From a virus: a DNA stretch of 47,650 bases. A program made the translations under genes and the position numbers. The first letter of the stretch is position 1. Each line of letters starts with the position of its first letter. The notes below the pieces were generated by a model. The model was not told where the DNA came from, made no database searches, and worked only from the letters and a program-made list of their open reading frames with translations. Positions 2,060 to 46,295 of this stretch are shown piece after piece. The stretch covers positions 1-47,650 of the IMG/VR virus record IMGVR_UViG_3300015371_000068; one strand, written 5' to 3'.

Positions 2060-2370
2060 AAATCATCGCAATCTTAATTACGGCAGCAATGCTGTCGCTT
2101 TCCGCTGTTAGCTTCACGTCCTGTGCCAACATGAGTGGCACAGTTGCTACCGCGCAGGGATGGCTGAATGATCCCAAAAATCAGCAGCTCATTTCCGACA
2201 TCGCTTCTACCGCCATAAGTGTCATCGGCTTACTAGGCGCAAAAGAGGGAGCAAATACTCAGGCTACTACCGTCGGAAAACTTAGTGCCAAATATCCTGA
2301 CGTTCCCGCAGGCGCTCTCCGCGAGATTGCAGCGCATCCCCACGCCTATGCCAAAACCGCTCAACATTAA
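2056..2370 (+). CDS. Putative lipoprotein in lysis cassette (o-spanin-like candidate)
   Basis: This gene encodes 104 residues. The N-terminus is a signal peptide with a lipobox-like SFTSC ending at Cys23, although Phe at -3 is not the classical residue. The mature part is short and mostly helical, with a hydrophobic stretch at about 48-62. It starts in an ATGA overlap. A small lipoprotein directly downstream of single-TM coiled-coil proteins fits an outer-membrane spanin subunit, which would imply a host with an outer membrane. That role is inferred from layout and not from sequence family. Confidence 0.6.
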   Translation: MKIIAILITAAMLSLSAVSFTSCANMSGTVATAQGWLNDPKNQQLISDIASTAISVIGLLGAKEGANTQATTVGKLSAKYPDVPAGALREIAAHPHAYAKTAQH

Positions 2371-3133
2371 ATGGTACGGGTGGAGGGTCGATGTCCCGGA
2401 TAAGCGTGACCGCTACCGCATTGTTCGGCCACGGGTAGAGCCACTGCCAGCTCTGGTCGATCTGCGCGAACACTTCCCGCCCTGCTACGATCAGGGCGAT
2501 CTCGGCAGTTGCACCGCTCAATCCATCGCCGGACTACTTGAGTTTGCCCAACTCAAGCAGCCCGGTGGTGGCGATAACTTTACCCCGTCCCGACTCTTTA
2601 TCTATTACTACGAGCGCAAGATTGAAGGGACGCTAAAAGAGGACTCCGGCGCTCAGATTCGGAGCGGGATCAAGGTCGTGGCCGATCAGGGTGCTCCACC
2701 AGAAGAATTGTGGCCCTACAACATCGAGAAATTTACTACCCGCCCACCGCGCAAGGCTTTTAACGAAGCCAAGAAACATCAGGCCATTTCCTACGAACGA
2801 GTCTGCCAGAAGTTAGAGGACATTCGCGGCTCCCTCGCCGATGGATACCCCATCGCATTCGGTTTCAGTGTTTACGATGGGTTTGAGACTGACGAAGTAG
2901 CCAAGACCGGCGTCTTAGCTTTTCCGAAGTCAGAGGAAACGATGCTTGGCGGTCACGCCGTAGTCTGCTGTGGCTACGATCACGACAAGTCCCTTTTCAT
3001 TATTCGTAACTCATGGGGCACGGACTGGGGAGTAAACGGCTACTTCACAATGCCTTATGAATACGTCCTCGACCGTGATCTGGCGGACGATTTTTGGACA
3101 ATCCGTTTAATCGAAGAAGTAGGAGTAACATGA
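2348..3133 (+). CDS. Papain-like (C1A) cysteine peptidase
   Basis: From the ATG at 2348 the gene encodes 261 residues. The active-site signature YDQGDLGSCTAQS places Gln49 (oxyanion hole) and Cys55 (nucleophile). GGHAVVCCGYD supplies His203, and RNSWGTDWG supplies Asn221, giving a complete catalytic set. An earlier GTG at 2285 would overlap the lipoprotein gene by 86 bases, while the chosen start begins at the conserved KWYGWRVDVPDKRD region. There is no signal peptide, so it would stay in the cytoplasm or virion unless released. It is followed with a 4-base overlap by a double-psi beta-barrel protein. Possible roles are an endopeptidase for lysis, entry or virion maturation. Confidence 0.85.
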   Translation: MPKPLNIKWYGWRVDVPDKRDRYRIVRPRVEPLPALVDLREHFPPCYDQGDLGSCTAQSIAGLLEFAQLKQPGGGDNFTPSRLFIYYYERKIEGTLKEDSGAQIRSGIKVVADQGAPPEELWPYNIEKFTTRPPRKAFNEAKKHQAISYERVCQKLEDIRGSLADGYPIAFGFSVYDGFETDEVAKTGVLAFPKSEETMLGGHAVVCCGYDHDKSLFIIRNSWGTDWGVNGYFTMPYEYVLDRDLADDFWTIRLIEEVGVT

Positions 3134-3663
3134 GCCTGAAACCAGCCCGCTACAAAAAACACGTTCCCTTGCAGCGCCGGATGTCGTGGCGGCACAAACG
3201 CTTCATGGAGTACTCCGCGAAAGCGCCCCCGCAGGAAATTCTCATCGGGGACAAGGGCTTTTATTTCCACGCAGTAGTCGTCGGGGCCGATCTCATTGTC
3301 CGAGGCGTTCTCGCCACTTGGTTCGGCACTTCGCTGGACAAGCAGGATAACGGAGAAACCGCTTCAGGTGTTTCCACTCTCAAGACACCTGATGTAGTTG
3401 GCTGCGCGTTGCCCATGCATGGCTTTGGCCTCGCGGCTACCGATGGTTCACCCCTTCCACGCATCCCCTGGTTTACCAAAGTGCGGGTAGGTGTGCCCGG
3501 ACGCGAGCCAATCGACGTGCCACTGATTGATTTAGGTCCAGCCCGTTACACCAACCACGGAATAGACCTAACACCCGTCGCCTTCAAGAAGCTTGGAGGG
3601 GACTTAAACAGGGGAATCCTGTCTGTAGATTATCGGATATTAGGCGGGGCGCATTATTTATAA
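3130..3663 (+). CDS. RlpA-like double-psi beta-barrel protein (putative cell-wall enzyme)
   Basis: This gene encodes 177 residues. An AGGAG ribosome-binding site precedes the ATG, which overlaps the peptidase stop by four bases. The features ATWFG, NGETASGV, GCALPM, VPLIDLGPA and GIDLTPVAFKKLGGD follow the pattern of the RlpA/3D-type double-psi beta-barrel fold, in which conserved acidic residues act on peptidoglycan. There is no signal peptide. With the holin-like and spanin-like genes upstream it is the best candidate for the endolysin, though the fold also occurs in non-enzymatic proteins. Its last ten bases overlap the convergent HNH gene. Confidence 0.7.
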   Translation: MSLKPARYKKHVPLQRRMSWRHKRFMEYSAKAPPQEILIGDKGFYFHAVVVGADLIVRGVLATWFGTSLDKQDNGETASGVSTLKTPDVVGCALPMHGFGLAATDGSPLPRIPWFTKVRVGVPGREPIDVPLIDLGPARYTNHGIDLTPVAFKKLGGDLNRGILSVDYRILGGAHYL

Positions 3664-4058
3664 CGGTAACTGCCATGACATCTCCTACAGACCCATCTCA
3701 CATCAAGCCATTTAGAATAATCAGGGTGATGAGCATGAATGTCGTTCGACTCTTTCAGGCAATCGGCGCAGACACGGGGCCGAAACAAAAGGCCATGTCG
3801 AATCGCTCTCCGTACAGCGTTATGGGCGGCCCTTTTCTCTGGATTTCTGCGCGACCAGTCATTTCTCCACTTTCGGCAAAGGTCAGGATAACGCTTCCTG
3901 TATTCCTTGCTGCTGGCACGGGCTTTTACCAAAATGTTTTCTCGATTCTCGCGGTATTTTTTAAGGCCAACTTGGATGTGACATGGGGCGCAACGCCCTG
4001 TGCCTTTGTAAAACCTAACTTCGTCGCTGGTCTTTCCGCACATTCCGCATGTTTGCAT
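3654..4058 (-). CDS. HNH homing-type endonuclease, inserted antisense
   Basis: This gene encodes 134 residues. Two CxxC pairs at the N-terminus (CGMCG and CAPCH) and a second pair around CADC and CRRC frame an HH motif in the segment NDIHAHHPDYSKWLDVRW, which is typical of phage HNH endonucleases. The middle is strongly basic (RKRYPDLCRKWRNDW). It is the only minus-strand gene among plus-strand late genes and overlaps the end of the preceding gene by 10 bases, which is how free-standing homing endonucleases usually sit. Its likely job is to cut phage genomes that lack the insert. Confidence 0.8.
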   Translation of the reverse strand: MQTCGMCGKTSDEVRFYKGTGRCAPCHIQVGLKKYRENRENILVKARASSKEYRKRYPDLCRKWRNDWSRRNPEKRAAHNAVRRAIRHGLLFRPRVCADCLKESNDIHAHHPDYSKWLDVRWVCRRCHGSYRYK

Positions 4059-25253: not shown

Positions 25254-26522
25254 TTACTCTTGCCGCTCATTTTTTTCTTCTTCGCCATTTGCGATCACCT
25301 CCCTTATCCCGTTTAAAATCTGATAAGCCACCTGTGGGACGATTGCATTACCTAGTCCTCTAAGTCGGTTGGTTCTCTCTTTAACCCCCTTTGCGACACG
25401 AGGAATATATTTCGGTTCTTGGAGCCAGTAAGCCCCCAAGTCCCATCTTTCATGTGATCGTCCTTGTGGCATTTCTGACAAAGAATTTGGAGATTCGACA
25501 ATTCGTTGTTCAAAAGATTCCGGTCGCGATGATGCCTCTGTAAACCATGCCGAGAGCCACACGCTTCGCATTTTTCCATCGTCCTTATTAGCCGATGCGC
25601 TCTCATGCGACCACTTTTCGGTTTCGCCATGTTCCGCGAGATAATCCAGTCTCCGTAGCATCTGCTTGAACAAAAACGACGATGCTTCCAAGTGGCGTCC
25701 AACTTCCCGTTTGACCATCTCGGTCGAATCATTTCCTTGCCACAAAATTCGCAACGCTTCATCTATACCTCCGTCCATGTTTCGGGGTATCCCATTAGCC
25801 ACTCTACCCAATCGGGGTTCAGGGAGCCACTCTCTGCCGTGGCTGCTGTCGCACAAAGGTACTGGCGATCCTCCATGTGTTTCTGGCTCTTGCTCCCCCT
25901 CGGCCCGCTCCCTTTGTAATCGCTCGCGCGTGGCGACGGCCACATCTCCGGCGTGTTCACCTGATCGGCTAGGCTGATGGCGTGGCCCTGCTCCTTCCGA
26001 TCCAAAGCGTTCGCTGCTCCACCCGTTGTCATGCTCGCGTCCGGCGTACGCCACAATCCAGACGCGCATTCGTCGGTGCGGCGCGTCCACGGCACAAGCT
26101 GGAATAGCAAACGCCCGAAACCCATAACCGATATTTGCCAAGTCAGATAGCACCTGGTCGAGTTCCACTCCGATGATTCCAGCAACATTTTCTCCAACAA
26201 TCCAAGTGGGGTGCGCTTCTCTGATAACTCGGAGCATTTCCGGCCAGAGCGCACGGTCATCTGCCGCGCCTCTTCGCTTCCCTGCGTGGCTGAAAGGTTG
26301 GCAAGGAAATCCCCCTGTAATGAGATCGACTCCCCTATACCATCCTCCATCAAGAGTTCTAATGTCGGGCCAGATATGGATGTTGCCGAAGTTCTTGTAG
26401 AGCACTCTTCGACAGTAGGAGTCAATTTCGCAGAATAGGGTGGTTTTGAATCCAGCCCATCGAGCGGCAAGAGCAAATCCTCCGATCCCGCTGAACAGGT
26501 CAAGGTGTGTGGGCCTGTCCAT
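25254..26522 (-). CDS. DNA C5-cytosine methyltransferase
   Basis: This gene encodes 422 residues from ATG 26522, which follows CGGAG. It transfers a methyl group from S-adenosylmethionine to cytosine in DNA, most likely to protect phage DNA from restriction. Motif I is DLFSGIGG (8-15), motif IV GGFPCQPFS with catalytic Cys74, motif VI ENV (111-113), motif VIII-like RMRVW (151-155) and motif X RLRGLGNAIVPQ (from 386). A stretch of about 130 residues between GRVANGIP and the second, similar RVAKGV segment is not methyltransferase-like. It coincides with an HNH gene in another frame, so the protein may be interrupted or enlarged. Confidence 0.85.
   Translation of the reverse strand: MDRPTHLDLFSGIGGFALAARWAGFKTTLFCEIDSYCRRVLYKNFGNIHIWPDIRTLDGGWYRGVDLITGGFPCQPFSHAGKRRGAADDRALWPEMLRVIREAHPTWIVGENVAGIIGVELDQVLSDLANIGYGFRAFAIPACAVDAPHRRMRVWIVAYAGREHDNGWSSERFGSEGAGPRHQPSRSGEHAGDVAVATRERLQRERAEGEQEPETHGGSPVPLCDSSHGREWLPEPRLGRVANGIPRNMDGGIDEALRILWQGNDSTEMVKREVGRHLEASSFLFKQMLRRLDYLAEHGETEKWSHESASANKDDGKMRSVWLSAWFTEASSRPESFEQRIVESPNSLSEMPQGRSHERWDLGAYWLQEPKYIPRVAKGVKERTNRLRGLGNAIVPQVAYQILNGIREVIANGEEEKNERQE
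25352..25762 (-). CDS. HNH endonuclease inside the methyltransferase gene
   Basis: This gene encodes 136 residues. An N-terminal zinc knuckle (CEFCGKEM, CSSRC) is followed by CEACGSRHGLQRHHRDRNL and NLQILCQKCHKDDH, a canonical Cys-flanked HNH nuclease core. It begins directly after a TAG that ends another open frame (25763-25765) and lies in the same frame as that protein. The methyltransferase reads through the whole interval in a different frame. It is likely a homing endonuclease that invaded the methyltransferase locus. Its last residues are encoded by bases that also encode methyltransferase motif X. Confidence 0.75.
   Translation of the reverse strand: MKRCEFCGKEMIRPRWSNGKLDATWKHRRFCSSRCYGDWIISRNMAKPKSGRMRAHRLIRTMEKCEACGSRHGLQRHHRDRNLLNNELSNLQILCQKCHKDDHMKDGTWGLTGSKNRNIFLVSQRGLKREPTDLED
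25763..26350 (-). CDS. Overlapping-frame protein with WLMGYPETWTEV ending
   Basis: The frame is open from 26503 to 25763. ATG 26350 would give 195 residues and ATG 26260 fewer. The words LLEKMLLESSEWNSTRCYLT, LLFQLVPWTRRTDE, GLWRTPDAS, MWPSPRASD and SLNPDWVEWLMGYPETWTEV match a family I know from phage genomes that lies near cytosine methyltransferases and ends in EWLMGFPxGWTxL. Here it is encoded by the same bases as methyltransferase motif VIII through the RVANGIP segment, in another frame. It may be real overprinting, or a conserved-looking shadow of the methyltransferase. The function is unknown. Confidence 0.4.
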   Translation of the reverse strand: MEDGIGESISLQGDFLANLSATQGSEEARQMTVRSGRKCSELSEKRTPLGLLEKMLLESSEWNSTRCYLTWQISVMGFGRLLFQLVPWTRRTDECASGLWRTPDASMTTGGAANALDRKEQGHAISLADQVNTPEMWPSPRASDYKGSGPRGSKSQKHMEDRQYLCATAATAESGSLNPDWVEWLMGYPETWTEV

Positions 26523-34639: not shown

Positions 34640-35737
34640 ATGCCGTGGATAAACACTAGTGGCGAATGGGAATGGATAGACGATCAACCATTCGCAGAAC
34701 CTACGGAGGAGACTCCTCCGCCAATGGTAACGTGCCCTTGCTGTTATAACTATGAGCAAGTCCGCGAGGATCAAACTTGTAACGCGCGAGTTTTTTTGCG
34801 CGAGGGAAATGCGCCGCGACTACCTAATGTCTGCGAGGATTGCCAACGCTATTGCGATTCGTGCGACGAAACTTATGCCGTACAGGGTGGTTGGCATGAG
34901 GATTATTGCCCTAATTGTTATGACAATGATTCATGCGGCGAGGATGAAGAATTCTATTATCCTAGACTCAATAGATTTTTCGGCATTGGCCCGAAATTTT
35001 TCGGTCTAGAAATAGAATGCGAAGTTAATTCCTCGCAAGCGCGAGGAGAAAAGCTGCGTCAGTTGCGCTCTATATTGGGCGACTACGCAGCACTAAAAGA
35101 AGATGGAAGTCTGGACTACGGCATTGAAATTGCCACGCAACCAGCTTCCATGAAGGAGCACAAGGTAAGACTGGCAAAACTATTCGCCAAGCTGCCGCGC
35201 GGGTTGTCAGCATGGCGACGTCCATCATGCGGGTTGCACATTCACGTTTCTAGAAGTCCGTTGTCAGACTTAACGATAGCGAAAACGGTCTGCTTTGTTT
35301 CGGCAAATCACAATCGCCGTTTTATTAAGCTGATTGCGGGACGCGACTCCAACAGCTATTGCAAGATACAGCCTAAGAAATTAGGTACGGCTGCGAAGTA
35401 TAACGCGGATCGTTACGAGGCAATTAACTTGCAGAATATTAACACAATCGAATTTCGATTGTTTAAAGGCACGTTGCGTGACGTTAGCGTCTATAAGGCG
35501 TTGGAGTTTACCGACGCATTAACAAACTATGCCGGATGCGCCGCACGGAGCATTCGCGACTCACAATCGCGCGTTAAATTTTGCGCGTTTGTGGAGGAGA
35601 ATAAGGCGACATGGCCTAATCTATGCGCCTTTATTCAAGCGCGTTGGTTCGGTCGCGAAACTGATTTGACTAAGCAAATTGGTTTTAATGCGAGTGAAAA
35701 CAATCAGGAAACATTAGATCAAACATCAGAACAATAG
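34640..35737 (+). CDS. Zinc-ribbon amidoligase (COOH-NH2 ligase, Amidoligase_2 type)
   Basis: This gene encodes 365 residues, with AGAAGGA before the ATG. Residues 30-99 hold five cysteine pairs (CPCC, CEDC, CDSC, CPNC and others) as a zinc-ribbon region. The catalytic domain follows: FGLEIE (121-126), EDGSLDYGIEIATQP (154-168), CGLHIH (197-202), RYEAINLQ (258-265) and IEFRLFKGTL (270-279). These are the signature blocks of Amidoligase_2, a glutamine-synthetase-like fold that uses ATP to join a carboxylate to an amine. The gene is followed 16 bases later by a glutamine amidotransferase that could supply ammonia. The substrate is unknown: a peptide, a protein tail or a cell-wall precursor. Confidence 0.85.
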   Translation: MPWINTSGEWEWIDDQPFAEPTEETPPPMVTCPCCYNYEQVREDQTCNARVFLREGNAPRLPNVCEDCQRYCDSCDETYAVQGGWHEDYCPNCYDNDSCGEDEEFYYPRLNRFFGIGPKFFGLEIECEVNSSQARGEKLRQLRSILGDYAALKEDGSLDYGIEIATQPASMKEHKVRLAKLFAKLPRGLSAWRRPSCGLHIHVSRSPLSDLTIAKTVCFVSANHNRRFIKLIAGRDSNSYCKIQPKKLGTAAKYNADRYEAINLQNINTIEFRLFKGTLRDVSVYKALEFTDALTNYAGCAARSIRDSQSRVKFCAFVEENKATWPNLCAFIQARWFGRETDLTKQIGFNASENNQETLDQTSEQ

Positions 35738-35753
35738 AAGGAGACAATCAATT

Positions 35754-36674
35754 ATGTGTTTAGCTATATTTAAGCCCAAAGGCGTGGAGATAAAGAAAAA
35801 GTATCTCCGCAACGGATGGGATAACAATGAGGATGGAGCGGGTTTTGCGCTTGCGCGAGGTAATGCTGTGGAAATTCACAAGGGTTTTTTCACCTTTAAG
35901 GAGTTTTACACAGCCTTTAAAGAGTTTAACAATCCGAGGGAGGTAGCGTTGATCCATTTCCGCTGGGGAACGCATGGCCCTAATAACGCGGCGAATTGCC
36001 ATCCATTTAGCGTGTGTGGGGATAAGTATGCCATGATCCACAATGGGATTATTGATATTAAGAGGGAAAATTTCGCGTTATCGGACACAGCGCATTTTTG
36101 CGAATTGGTTTTGCAACCGATTTTGGAAAAAGGCGTGGAATTTGATAGCGGCGCATTGCGTTACCTAGTGGAGGGATCGATTGGAGATTTAAATAAAATT
36201 GTGCTTCTGCGTGGCGACGGAGCGCACGTTATTTTCCACGAGAAAAAGGGGGAATGGAAAAACGGCTCGTGGTATTCCAATAATGGCTACCAGTACGCGA
36301 GCACATTTTCCCGCGCGTGGGCTTATGAGGGAAAAGGTTCCTGCGGCGCGTACGCTGGCTTTGGTGCTGGTTACGGCAGTGGAAGCCAGTGGAAACGTCG
36401 CGAACAGACTAGAGAGGATGAAATGTTGGACGCAGCCTATTGGCAGGGAGAATGCGAGAGCGTGTCTGCTGCTGGTTATGGGAGCGAGTGGGAATACCAG
36501 TACAACAAGGAAACGAACAAATGGAGTCGCGTCGGACTGAACAAGCGCATCGCGGAAATGACGGAGGAGGAATGGAGGAAAGAGTGCGAGGAGGAATTGG
36601 AAATCGCCAATCGTGACGCAATCCAAACGCAAGCGGAAATAGATAAGGAGGAGAATGAAAAATACAGTGGTTAA
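35754..36674 (+). CDS. Class II glutamine amidotransferase (Ntn hydrolase)
   Basis: This gene encodes 306 residues, with GAAGGAG upstream. Cys2, exposed after Met removal, is the nucleophile (MCLAIF). Matching class II blocks are NEDGAGFA (25-32), HFRWGTHGPNNAANCHPF (68-85) with Arg70, and AMIHNGII (93-100), as in GlmS and PurF. The enzyme would hydrolyse glutamine and pass ammonia, or act on a gamma-glutamyl bond. The C-terminal 110 residues are Gly/Tyr-rich and then charged helix, and are not part of the core. It is paired with the amidoligase upstream and closed by a terminator. Confidence 0.85.
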   Translation: MCLAIFKPKGVEIKKKYLRNGWDNNEDGAGFALARGNAVEIHKGFFTFKEFYTAFKEFNNPREVALIHFRWGTHGPNNAANCHPFSVCGDKYAMIHNGIIDIKRENFALSDTAHFCELVLQPILEKGVEFDSGALRYLVEGSIGDLNKIVLLRGDGAHVIFHEKKGEWKNGSWYSNNGYQYASTFSRAWAYEGKGSCGAYAGFGAGYGSGSQWKRREQTREDEMLDAAYWQGECESVSAAGYGSEWEYQYNKETNKWSRVGLNKRIAEMTEEEWRKECEEELEIANRDAIQTQAEIDKEENEKYSG

Positions 36675-44629: not shown

Positions 44630-45753
44630 GTACAATGACCGAAGAGGAAATTTTAGCTGACTTGGAGTCCTTCGAGAAGGAGCCGGTTCCTGAAATTGGG
44701 CAGACCAGCTCGCAGAAGGCATTGATTTCGCCTGTCGCGCAACCACAGGCTGAAACAGGGGAGGTGCCAGCCGAGAAAACGGGTCCGGGAGAAGAAGATG
44801 CTGGCAAAGACGCAACGGCTGGCACCGAACCACAAGCCACCGAGGAAAAACCGGCAACGGAACGGGAGCGCGATCCTACTACTGGAAAATTTGTTAAAAA
44901 AGCGGAGGAGCAGCCCGCAAAGGCGGAAGAAATCTCAGGAAAAGCGGAAGTTCCAACCGAAAAGCCGGAAACATCGAAATATGACAAAGCCAAGAAAGAG
45001 CAAGAGCGGCAAAAAAGCCTCCTCGCAGGCTTCGATGAAGAAAAAGCAAGGTTCCGCGCTCAAGCAGCAGCAGAAAAGGCCGAAATCGAGCGCGAAAGGC
45101 AGCGCATCGAAGAAGAGAAGCTCAAAATCCGCGCCCAGCGCAACGGACAACGACCCGTGGACGAAAACGGCGACCCGATTTACTCCTCCTACGAGCTTCG
45201 GGAACTCGCCAGGGATTACCGAAGGCGGGCACTAAAGGGCGAAGCCGGTCCCAACGGCGAGGATTACGGCGAAGTAAGCGAGCGGGCCGAAGTAGCAGCC
45301 GAGCGTGCAGCAAAAAAAGAAGCACAGGAGCAACAAGCTCTTTTTGAGCGCCGCCAAACCCAACTGGCGATGGAGCAAATGAGCGCGAATCCTGAACTAC
45401 AGGATGCCAATTCTCCTTTGGCGCAGGAAATTCAGGCCGTATTCACGCAAGAAGCAGAACTCGCCAAGAAATATGATCGCGGCAGCATTTTCCGCATGAT
45501 CCCCGATGGATTTGAACGGGCACTTGAAGTGGCGAGGCTGCGGCAAAAGGCTGCGAGCGCCGAGGAGTGGAAGTCCAAGTACGAAGAGTCCCAGAAGGAA
45601 GTAGATCGGCTCAATTCCCTCACTACTTTAGGTTCCAGTAGTCCAGTTCAATCTCGTCAACCTAAGCCGCAGTCCGAAATGACGGCAGACGAGCTACTCG
45701 ATGAAATGGACAAGCAAGCCGAAAGACAAGGCGTTAAACTTTGGAAACGATGA
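44626..45753 (+). CDS. Putative scaffolding protein
   Basis: This gene encodes 375 residues. It is highly charged, Glu/Lys/Ala/Gln-rich and predicted to be almost all helix with long coiled-coil segments (for example KAEIERERQRIEEEKLKIRA). It lies immediately before the capsid gene (with an HNH gene between), the standard place for scaffolding. The conserved-looking C-terminus (SEMTADELLDEMDKQAERQG) could bind the capsid. It is expected to guide shell assembly and then leave. Confidence 0.7.
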   Translation: MSTMTEEEILADLESFEKEPVPEIGQTSSQKALISPVAQPQAETGEVPAEKTGPGEEDAGKDATAGTEPQATEEKPATERERDPTTGKFVKKAEEQPAKAEEISGKAEVPTEKPETSKYDKAKKEQERQKSLLAGFDEEKARFRAQAAAEKAEIERERQRIEEEKLKIRAQRNGQRPVDENGDPIYSSYELRELARDYRRRALKGEAGPNGEDYGEVSERAEVAAERAAKKEAQEQQALFERRQTQLAMEQMSANPELQDANSPLAQEIQAVFTQEAELAKKYDRGSIFRMIPDGFERALEVARLRQKAASAEEWKSKYEESQKEVDRLNSLTTLGSSSPVQSRQPKPQSEMTADELLDEMDKQAERQGVKLWKR

Positions 45754-46295
45754 AGCGCGTCCGCGATAAAGTTAAAGCCGCCGGGTATCACAAAAAGTGG
45801 TACGAAAAAAATCGCGCCGCCCAACTCGTTGCATTTCGGAAGTGGTACGCCGAAAACAAGGAAGCTCGGAAGCAGAGCAAGGACGCGTGGCGCAAGGCGC
45901 ATCCTGCAAACCATCGAGCCTATTTCCATAAGCGCAGGGATCGACTCAAATCGGTCGAGCAAACAGACGCACAAGATTGGAGCATTCTCCAACAGCTAAT
46001 CCAAGCGTCACCGAGACTAATTTGCGGGATTTGCGGCAAAAACATGCCGAAGAACGACCGAACCATTGACCACATCATTCCGCTGGTTCGCGGAGGCACT
46101 GGACACATCGGAAACTTGAGGGCCGTCCACCGGAAGTGCAATTCACGCAAAAGCGTACGACTTCCGCATGAATTTGACGGTCAGCATGAAATGAATTTCG
46201 CCAGCAGCGGGCGTGCCGCTGCACTTACGACCGTGGGAAAGGCATCCCACAACGTCGCCTACTGTGCCAACAAACTGAAACCAAAACATAAGTGA
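45750..46295 (+). CDS. HNH endonuclease between scaffold and capsid genes
   Basis: This gene encodes 181 residues from an ATGA overlap with the scaffold stop. Basic N-terminal helices (KKWYEKNRAAQLVAFRKWYA) lead to CGICGKNMPKNDRTIDHIIP and GHIGNLRAVHRKCNSRKS, a classical HNH core with the DH pair and an Asn. It is probably a homing endonuclease inserted beside an essential gene. It is the third HNH gene in the window. Confidence 0.85.
   Translation: MKRVRDKVKAAGYHKKWYEKNRAAQLVAFRKWYAENKEARKQSKDAWRKAHPANHRAYFHKRRDRLKSVEQTDAQDWSILQQLIQASPRLICGICGKNMPKNDRTIDHIIPLVRGGTGHIGNLRAVHRKCNSRKSVRLPHEFDGQHEMNFASSGRAAALTTVGKASHNVAYCANKLKPKHK

Follow-up and report, generated by a model that had tools for sequence, protein, structure and literature searches.

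The stretch of DNA analyzed here is the 47,650-base IMG/VR virus record IMGVR_UViG_3300015371_000068 (hereafter the window). It carries a C5-cytosine methyltransferase frame (alpha), an overlapping frame at +1 (beta) and an HNH endonuclease gene (Table 1). A sequence-only reading had reported a second open frame over a methyltransferase together with an HNH gene, and all three frames are indeed present on the minus strand. The two-frame stretch of about 1.15 kb which it described is present as well, but really consists of about 740 nt of alpha/beta overlap followed by about 410 nt of alpha/HNH overlap, the two second-frame ORFs (beta and HNH) being mutually in register. The same bases encode motifs of both proteins, and the overlaps match those described in that reading.

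Table 1. Features of the methyltransferase locus in the window.
Feature	Position	Strand	Remarks
Alpha, C5-cytosine methyltransferase frame	25254..26522	-	422 aa + stop, from ATG; PF00145, phrog_363, TIGR00675
Alpha motif IV (GGFPCQPFS), catalytic Cys	26289..26315	-	Sequence
Alpha motif VIII region (APHRRMRVWIV)	26052..26084	-	Sequence
Alpha motif X (GLGNAIVPQVA), past the HNH insertion	25326..25358	-	Sequence
Beta, +1 frame, putative recognition region and motif IX	25763..26350	-	ATG at the family's conserved start position; start uncertain
Beta, putative motif IX: LNPDWVEWLMGYPETW	25775..25822	-	Sequence comparison
HNH endonuclease ORF, 136 aa, in beta's frame	25352..25762	-	Between beta end and alpha motif X
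GGAGG, Shine-Dalgarno-like site for HNH, within beta's end	25768..25772	-	Sequence, duplex -10.1

Alpha matches PF00145 (3e-40), phrog_363 (7e-77) and also TIGR00675, and its membership in PF00145 is borne out by the presence of motifs I (DLFSGIGGF), IV (GGFPCQPFS, with PCQ), VI (ENV), VIII and X. The PF00145 match stops at profile position 168 of 324. A search for motif IX in the alpha frame ahead of GLGNAIVPQ did not find it, and the motif is present in the +1 frame; alpha is thus not a complete single-chain C5-methyltransferase, in which motif IX would precede motif X on one polypeptide. Positions 25763-26503 are open in the +1 frame, which matches phrog_1008 at 2e-30; the C-terminal end of its ORF is SLNPDWVEWLMGYPETWTEV followed by a stop. 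No Shine-Dalgarno (SD) sequence was found ahead of the beta ATG at 26350 in the window, so the exact start is uncertain. The beta stop (TAG, 25763-25765) directly abuts the HNH ATG, with which it is in frame, and the alpha frame is uninterrupted through the HNH gene to motif X. Closely upstream of the methyltransferase lies a VRR-NUC nuclease gene (PF08774; 27528-27971, minus strand).

Elsewhere in the window, a putative amidoligase gene (PF12224, 6e-10; 34640-35737, plus strand) adjoins a gene for a glutamine amidotransferase-like protein (PF13522, below cut-off; 35754-36674, plus strand), possibly forming a peptide or cell-wall modifying pair, and a papain-family cysteine protease (PF00112, 2e-15) is encoded near the start of the record (2285-3133, plus strand). 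A second HNH endonuclease gene (PF14279/PF01844, about 1e-11) is located at 45741-46295 (plus strand), and an ORF at 3654-4058 (minus strand) looks HNH-like by eye and gave no Pfam match.

A single protein query from the window retrieved no related loci, and profile queries were used instead. Using profiles of both frames, 80 viral and 80 bacterial loci were collected via beta and 80 viral loci via alpha alone; together with the window and four phage records, these 240 loci form a set of 245, with 200 distinct alpha sequences. Both frames were open, with beta at +1 of alpha, in 245 of 245 loci (median overlap 729 nt), and in the third frame 6% of codons were stops. As a stop test on open ORFs alone is conditioned on openness, the test was performed on regions bounded only by alpha motifs. 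In the alpha-ascertained loci, two stops were observed in the +1 frame of these regions versus 133.8 expected from synonymous codon shuffles, and the +2 frame contained 490 stops versus 524 expected from the shuffles, which is near expectation. For the window's gene alone, the open +1 frame over 194 codons from 26350 was kept in 0.27% of synonymous codon shuffles.

The window is without close relatives, and selection was therefore measured on the family and not on the window's own sequence. In close pairs, alpha third positions were the most variable outside the overlap. Within the overlap, many close pairs showed no more variation at alpha third positions than at first positions, which are the third positions of beta. 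This pattern is the signature of a second coding frame. An OLGenie-style count over 55 independent pairs gave a dN/dS (NN/NS) for beta of 0.48 (0.42-0.53) within the overlap and a neutral beta-frame value of 0.92 (0.79-1.07) in the part of alpha without beta cover. The alpha-synonymous/beta-nonsynonymous distance in the same pairs fell from 2.09 outside to 0.39 inside the overlap, and change at alpha fourfold sites dropped from approximately 0.57 upstream to 0.20 from codon -30, the position of beta's start. An SD duplex of -7 or below was found ahead of candidate beta starts in 39% of loci, compared to 3% of control windows. Both frames are coding and under selection, and beta is a real, selected, dual-coding gene rather than a shadow. 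The sequence-only reading had considered a second frame that is coding and constrained beyond the methyltransferase frame, and stop depletion, rate tests and fourfold sites agree with this. Lack of extra constraint, the outcome it had named as speaking against itself, was not observed.

That reading had also proposed that the second frame became an independent gene. When about 1,490 species genomes were searched by profile, beta was matched at 50 loci. At 48 of these it overlaps alpha in the same +1 register; of the other two, one, adjacent to alpha, is a degenerate remnant, and the other, scoring 20 bits, is probably a false match. No convincing stand-alone beta was thus found among the sampled genomes, including at loci without a methyltransferase, where the reading had suggested to look, and independence from alpha did not hold up. 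Rate tests that included both internal and external controls show the overlap to be conserved in phages of many hosts and in genomes from the Bacillota, Pseudomonadota, Bacteroidota and Acidobacteriota.

Beta proteins match phrog_1008 in 98 of 98 cases, and no relevant Pfam family was found for them. A point absent from the sequence-only reading is that the EWLMG motif near the end of beta is, judged by sequence comparison, methyltransferase motif IX, so that alpha and beta are most probably subunits of a single enzyme. In M.HhaI, motif IX is LHPRECARVMGYPDSY, the counterpart of LNPDWVEWLMGYPETW in beta. The compact single-chain enzyme of locus L274 links the two, as its KLNAKFVEYMMGLPEGWV..GNGVV aligns with KLHPRECARVMGYPDSYKV..GNSVV of M.HhaI (motifs IX and X) and its AF2 model spans M.HhaI 16-324 (Z 23.5, rmsd 2.4, 214 residues aligned). 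This alignment and the predicted structure argue that LNPDWVEWLMGYPETW of the window is the motif IX which alpha is missing. The HMMER score of motif IX by itself is below significance, and the case for motif IX rests on collinearity and structure. A search of the beta profile against the PDB gave one weak match (E 1.6), in which the motif IX stretch hit 4onj, a DNA methyltransferase; this is a hint only. The AF2 model of beta by itself is weak (pLDDT 66), and in a fold comparison this model matched no known fold.

Versions of the enzyme with the beta domain in cis exist. In actinophage enzymes (Estave1, L252, and most of L257-L288), WPTP repeats and WMMG are in frame with the catalytic domain and motif X. 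Among 22 single-chain enzymes with the motif in cis, the +1 frame contained 111 stops versus 131 expected and was open in none of the 22; the +1 frame stays open where the enzyme needs beta. In a Brevibacillus locus (L137) and in Streptomyces phage Samy (L255), the WPTP/WLMG domain is on the +1 ORF together with motif X. A third layout was observed in L274-L276, where motifs IX and X lie in the alpha frame and the +1 frame is still open over a WPTP region and an N-terminal part resembling that of beta; opposite these, alpha (156-223) is predicted to be disordered. In four actinophage loci (L282, L283, L285 and L287), WMMG and motif X lie off the frame of the catalytic half while relatives nearby are single-chain, and this layout reflects either frameshift lesions or switches between cis and trans in the recent past. 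In the stretch from motif VIII to motif IX, the rate test over the 55 pairs gave 0.45 for beta and 0.84 (0.75-0.97) for alpha. As beta is constrained and alpha near neutral there, the recognition region apparently lies on beta, and alpha appears to be filler in this stretch.

We consider it very probable that this locus specifies a C5-methyltransferase that is naturally split, in the manner of M.EcoHK31I and M.AquI, and receives its recognition region and motif IX in trans. Motif X and the large catalytic domain with motifs I-VIII would come from alpha in the 0 frame. Beta, from an internal start near motif IV in the +1 frame, would contribute motif IX and the variable recognition region. Presumably they form a heterodimer in which beta completes the small domain, and the active enzyme would methylate phage DNA against host restriction; assembly, activity and target site of the pair are predicted. 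A broader proposal, which we hold to be likely with somewhat less assurance, is that this is a large family of phage methyltransferases distributed over many bacterial phyla, in which the recognition region and motif IX are encoded at +1 over the catalytic domain, have moved repeatedly between in-cis and in-trans arrangements, and in which specificity and catalysis co-evolve in the same nucleotides.

Beta might instead be an overprinted protein with a function of its own, such as an anti-restriction or DNA-binding accessory protein, whose overlap with the methyltransferase is incidental. Its first approximately 60 residues (T.SGRKC..L..PLG.L.KMLL.S..W.ST...LTWK) are without a classical C5-methyltransferase counterpart, and the missing fold match would also fit such a protein. 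We regard this as unlikely, given that the end of beta corresponds to motif IX, which is absent from alpha and is part of the small domain of classical C5-methyltransferases, that L137, L255, L282 and L283 have motif X fused to beta, which is in cis in the actinophage enzymes, and that beta's linkage to alpha is obligate.

A shadow ORF, that is a +1 frame which conserved methyltransferase codons leave open as a side effect and which has been annotated again and again, was the other suggestion of the sequence-only reading. It would account for beta being practically never found without alpha, for its best-conserved stretches sitting over conserved alpha motifs and for the lack of such a family in Pfam. 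Stop depletion far exceeds that in codon shuffles preserving the alpha protein, alpha-synonymous change is suppressed only inside the overlap, and SD enrichment occurs at internal beta starts. Moreover, the same protein domain is read in frame in single-chain enzymes, and the +1 frame is not maintained where the domain sits in cis. The stop depletion, the rate tests and the fourfold-site change reject this explanation, which we consider very improbable. Least credible of all is programmed ribosomal frameshifting that joins the N-terminal half of alpha to beta in one chain: the shared stretch does span hundreds of nucleotides, and L137, L255 and L282 have an alpha frame that stops early and a beta that runs on to motif X, but main-type alpha itself extends that far, SD sequences are enriched at beta's separate start position, and alpha-synonymous constraint sets in at beta's start.

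In addition to the proposed split, the window's locus carries the HNH gene, whose ORF is out of the alpha frame inside the methylase while the methylase frame is open throughout, as in ShiLan-type hidden endonucleases. We interpret it as an endonuclease of this type that arrived as a later insertion, presumably by homing, in an event separate from the overprinting. The gene would have entered just past motif IX of beta, later than the overlap. The insertion would have restored a beta stop, with HNH starting at once behind its own SD sequence, and would have kept the alpha frame open as far as motif X. The last residues of the HNH ORF before its stop are TDLED, the usual tail of uninvaded betas; HNH therefore apparently took over a beta-type 3' end and beta gained a new stop. 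HNH is absent from the compared relatives, among which there is no close pair of invaded and uninvaded loci, and the same site is occupied in phage phiKX1. A duplication of the flanks around HNH (RVANGIP..RVAKGV) was considered and rejected, since the HNH-less loci L017, L035 and L036 carry WLDEP.DIPRVATG, which is native to the subfamily. Coding in two frames explains why hidden HNH insertions here must leave both frames intact. In Staphylococcus phage CUB-EPI_14 (L289), a hidden out-of-frame HNH gene is found in a conventional single-chain methyltransferase with its own motif IX (RKLTEKECWRLQGF), and hidden HNH insertions therefore also occur outside the split family.

Overlapping genes that share a strand over a long stretch are considered rare in phages and bacteria and are dropped by standard annotation. 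If the broader proposal is true, few long dual-coding genes on a single strand would be known to be as widespread as alpha/beta among prokaryotes and their viruses. On the split-enzyme reading, annotation would present many phage C5-methyltransferases as whole one-chain enzymes and either omit their recognition subunit or call it hypothetical, and alpha cloned alone would probably yield a dead enzyme. This reading also makes the function of beta directly testable. In the open-licence literature we found no paper describing the alpha/beta overlap, which does not imply that there are none.

M.EcoHK31I is a YGGCCR methyltransferase whose beta polypeptide is read from the alpha gene in another frame, and the family described here likewise has the small polypeptide in an alternative frame over the large one, at +1 in 245 of 245 loci. 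In M.EcoHK31I, motifs I-VIII and X are on the large and motif IX is on the small polypeptide (PMC3404938), and our locus also has I-VIII and X on one polypeptide and, as we read it, IX on another. The systems appear to differ in that the recognition domain of M.EcoHK31I is predicted in the large subunit (PMC3404938), whereas here the recognition region is constrained in beta and near neutral in alpha. The window's locus has an extra inserted HNH gene, and the likeness to M.EcoHK31I is set by description, not by sequence. The two-subunit M.AquI has motifs I-VIII on one chain and the distal variable region and motif IX on the other (PMC3404938). L137 and L255 have an AquI-like layout, with motif X also on beta, whereas the window keeps motif X on alpha, and its beta lies inside alpha and is not the distal part of the enzyme.

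The abstract, introduction, results and discussion of the paper on the ShiLan domain (PMC11855218) describe a hidden HNH endonuclease that is out of frame in mycobacteriophage DNA methylases without an intron or intein and has a GTG start and no detectable RBS; a beta frame is not mentioned in these sections. Compared with that description, the window similarly has an HNH gene out of frame in a phage C5-methylase whose own frame is open through the insertion, but its HNH gene is in beta's frame, right after the beta stop, and has a strong SD sequence. Escherichia phage K1ind2 has a beta relative annotated over a 'C-specific methylase' as 'Mte8-like protein' (phrog_1008); the records name no subunit role, and the PHROGs label is 'DNA methyltransferase'. 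Komagataeibacter phage phiKX1 (L290) has the gene order of the window, with a beta that ends in WLMGFP, a stop, an HNH gene in beta's frame and an alpha frame open to motif X, but its methyltransferase is a divergent one of the N15/PMG1 type and its HNH protein is 34.5% identical to that of the window.
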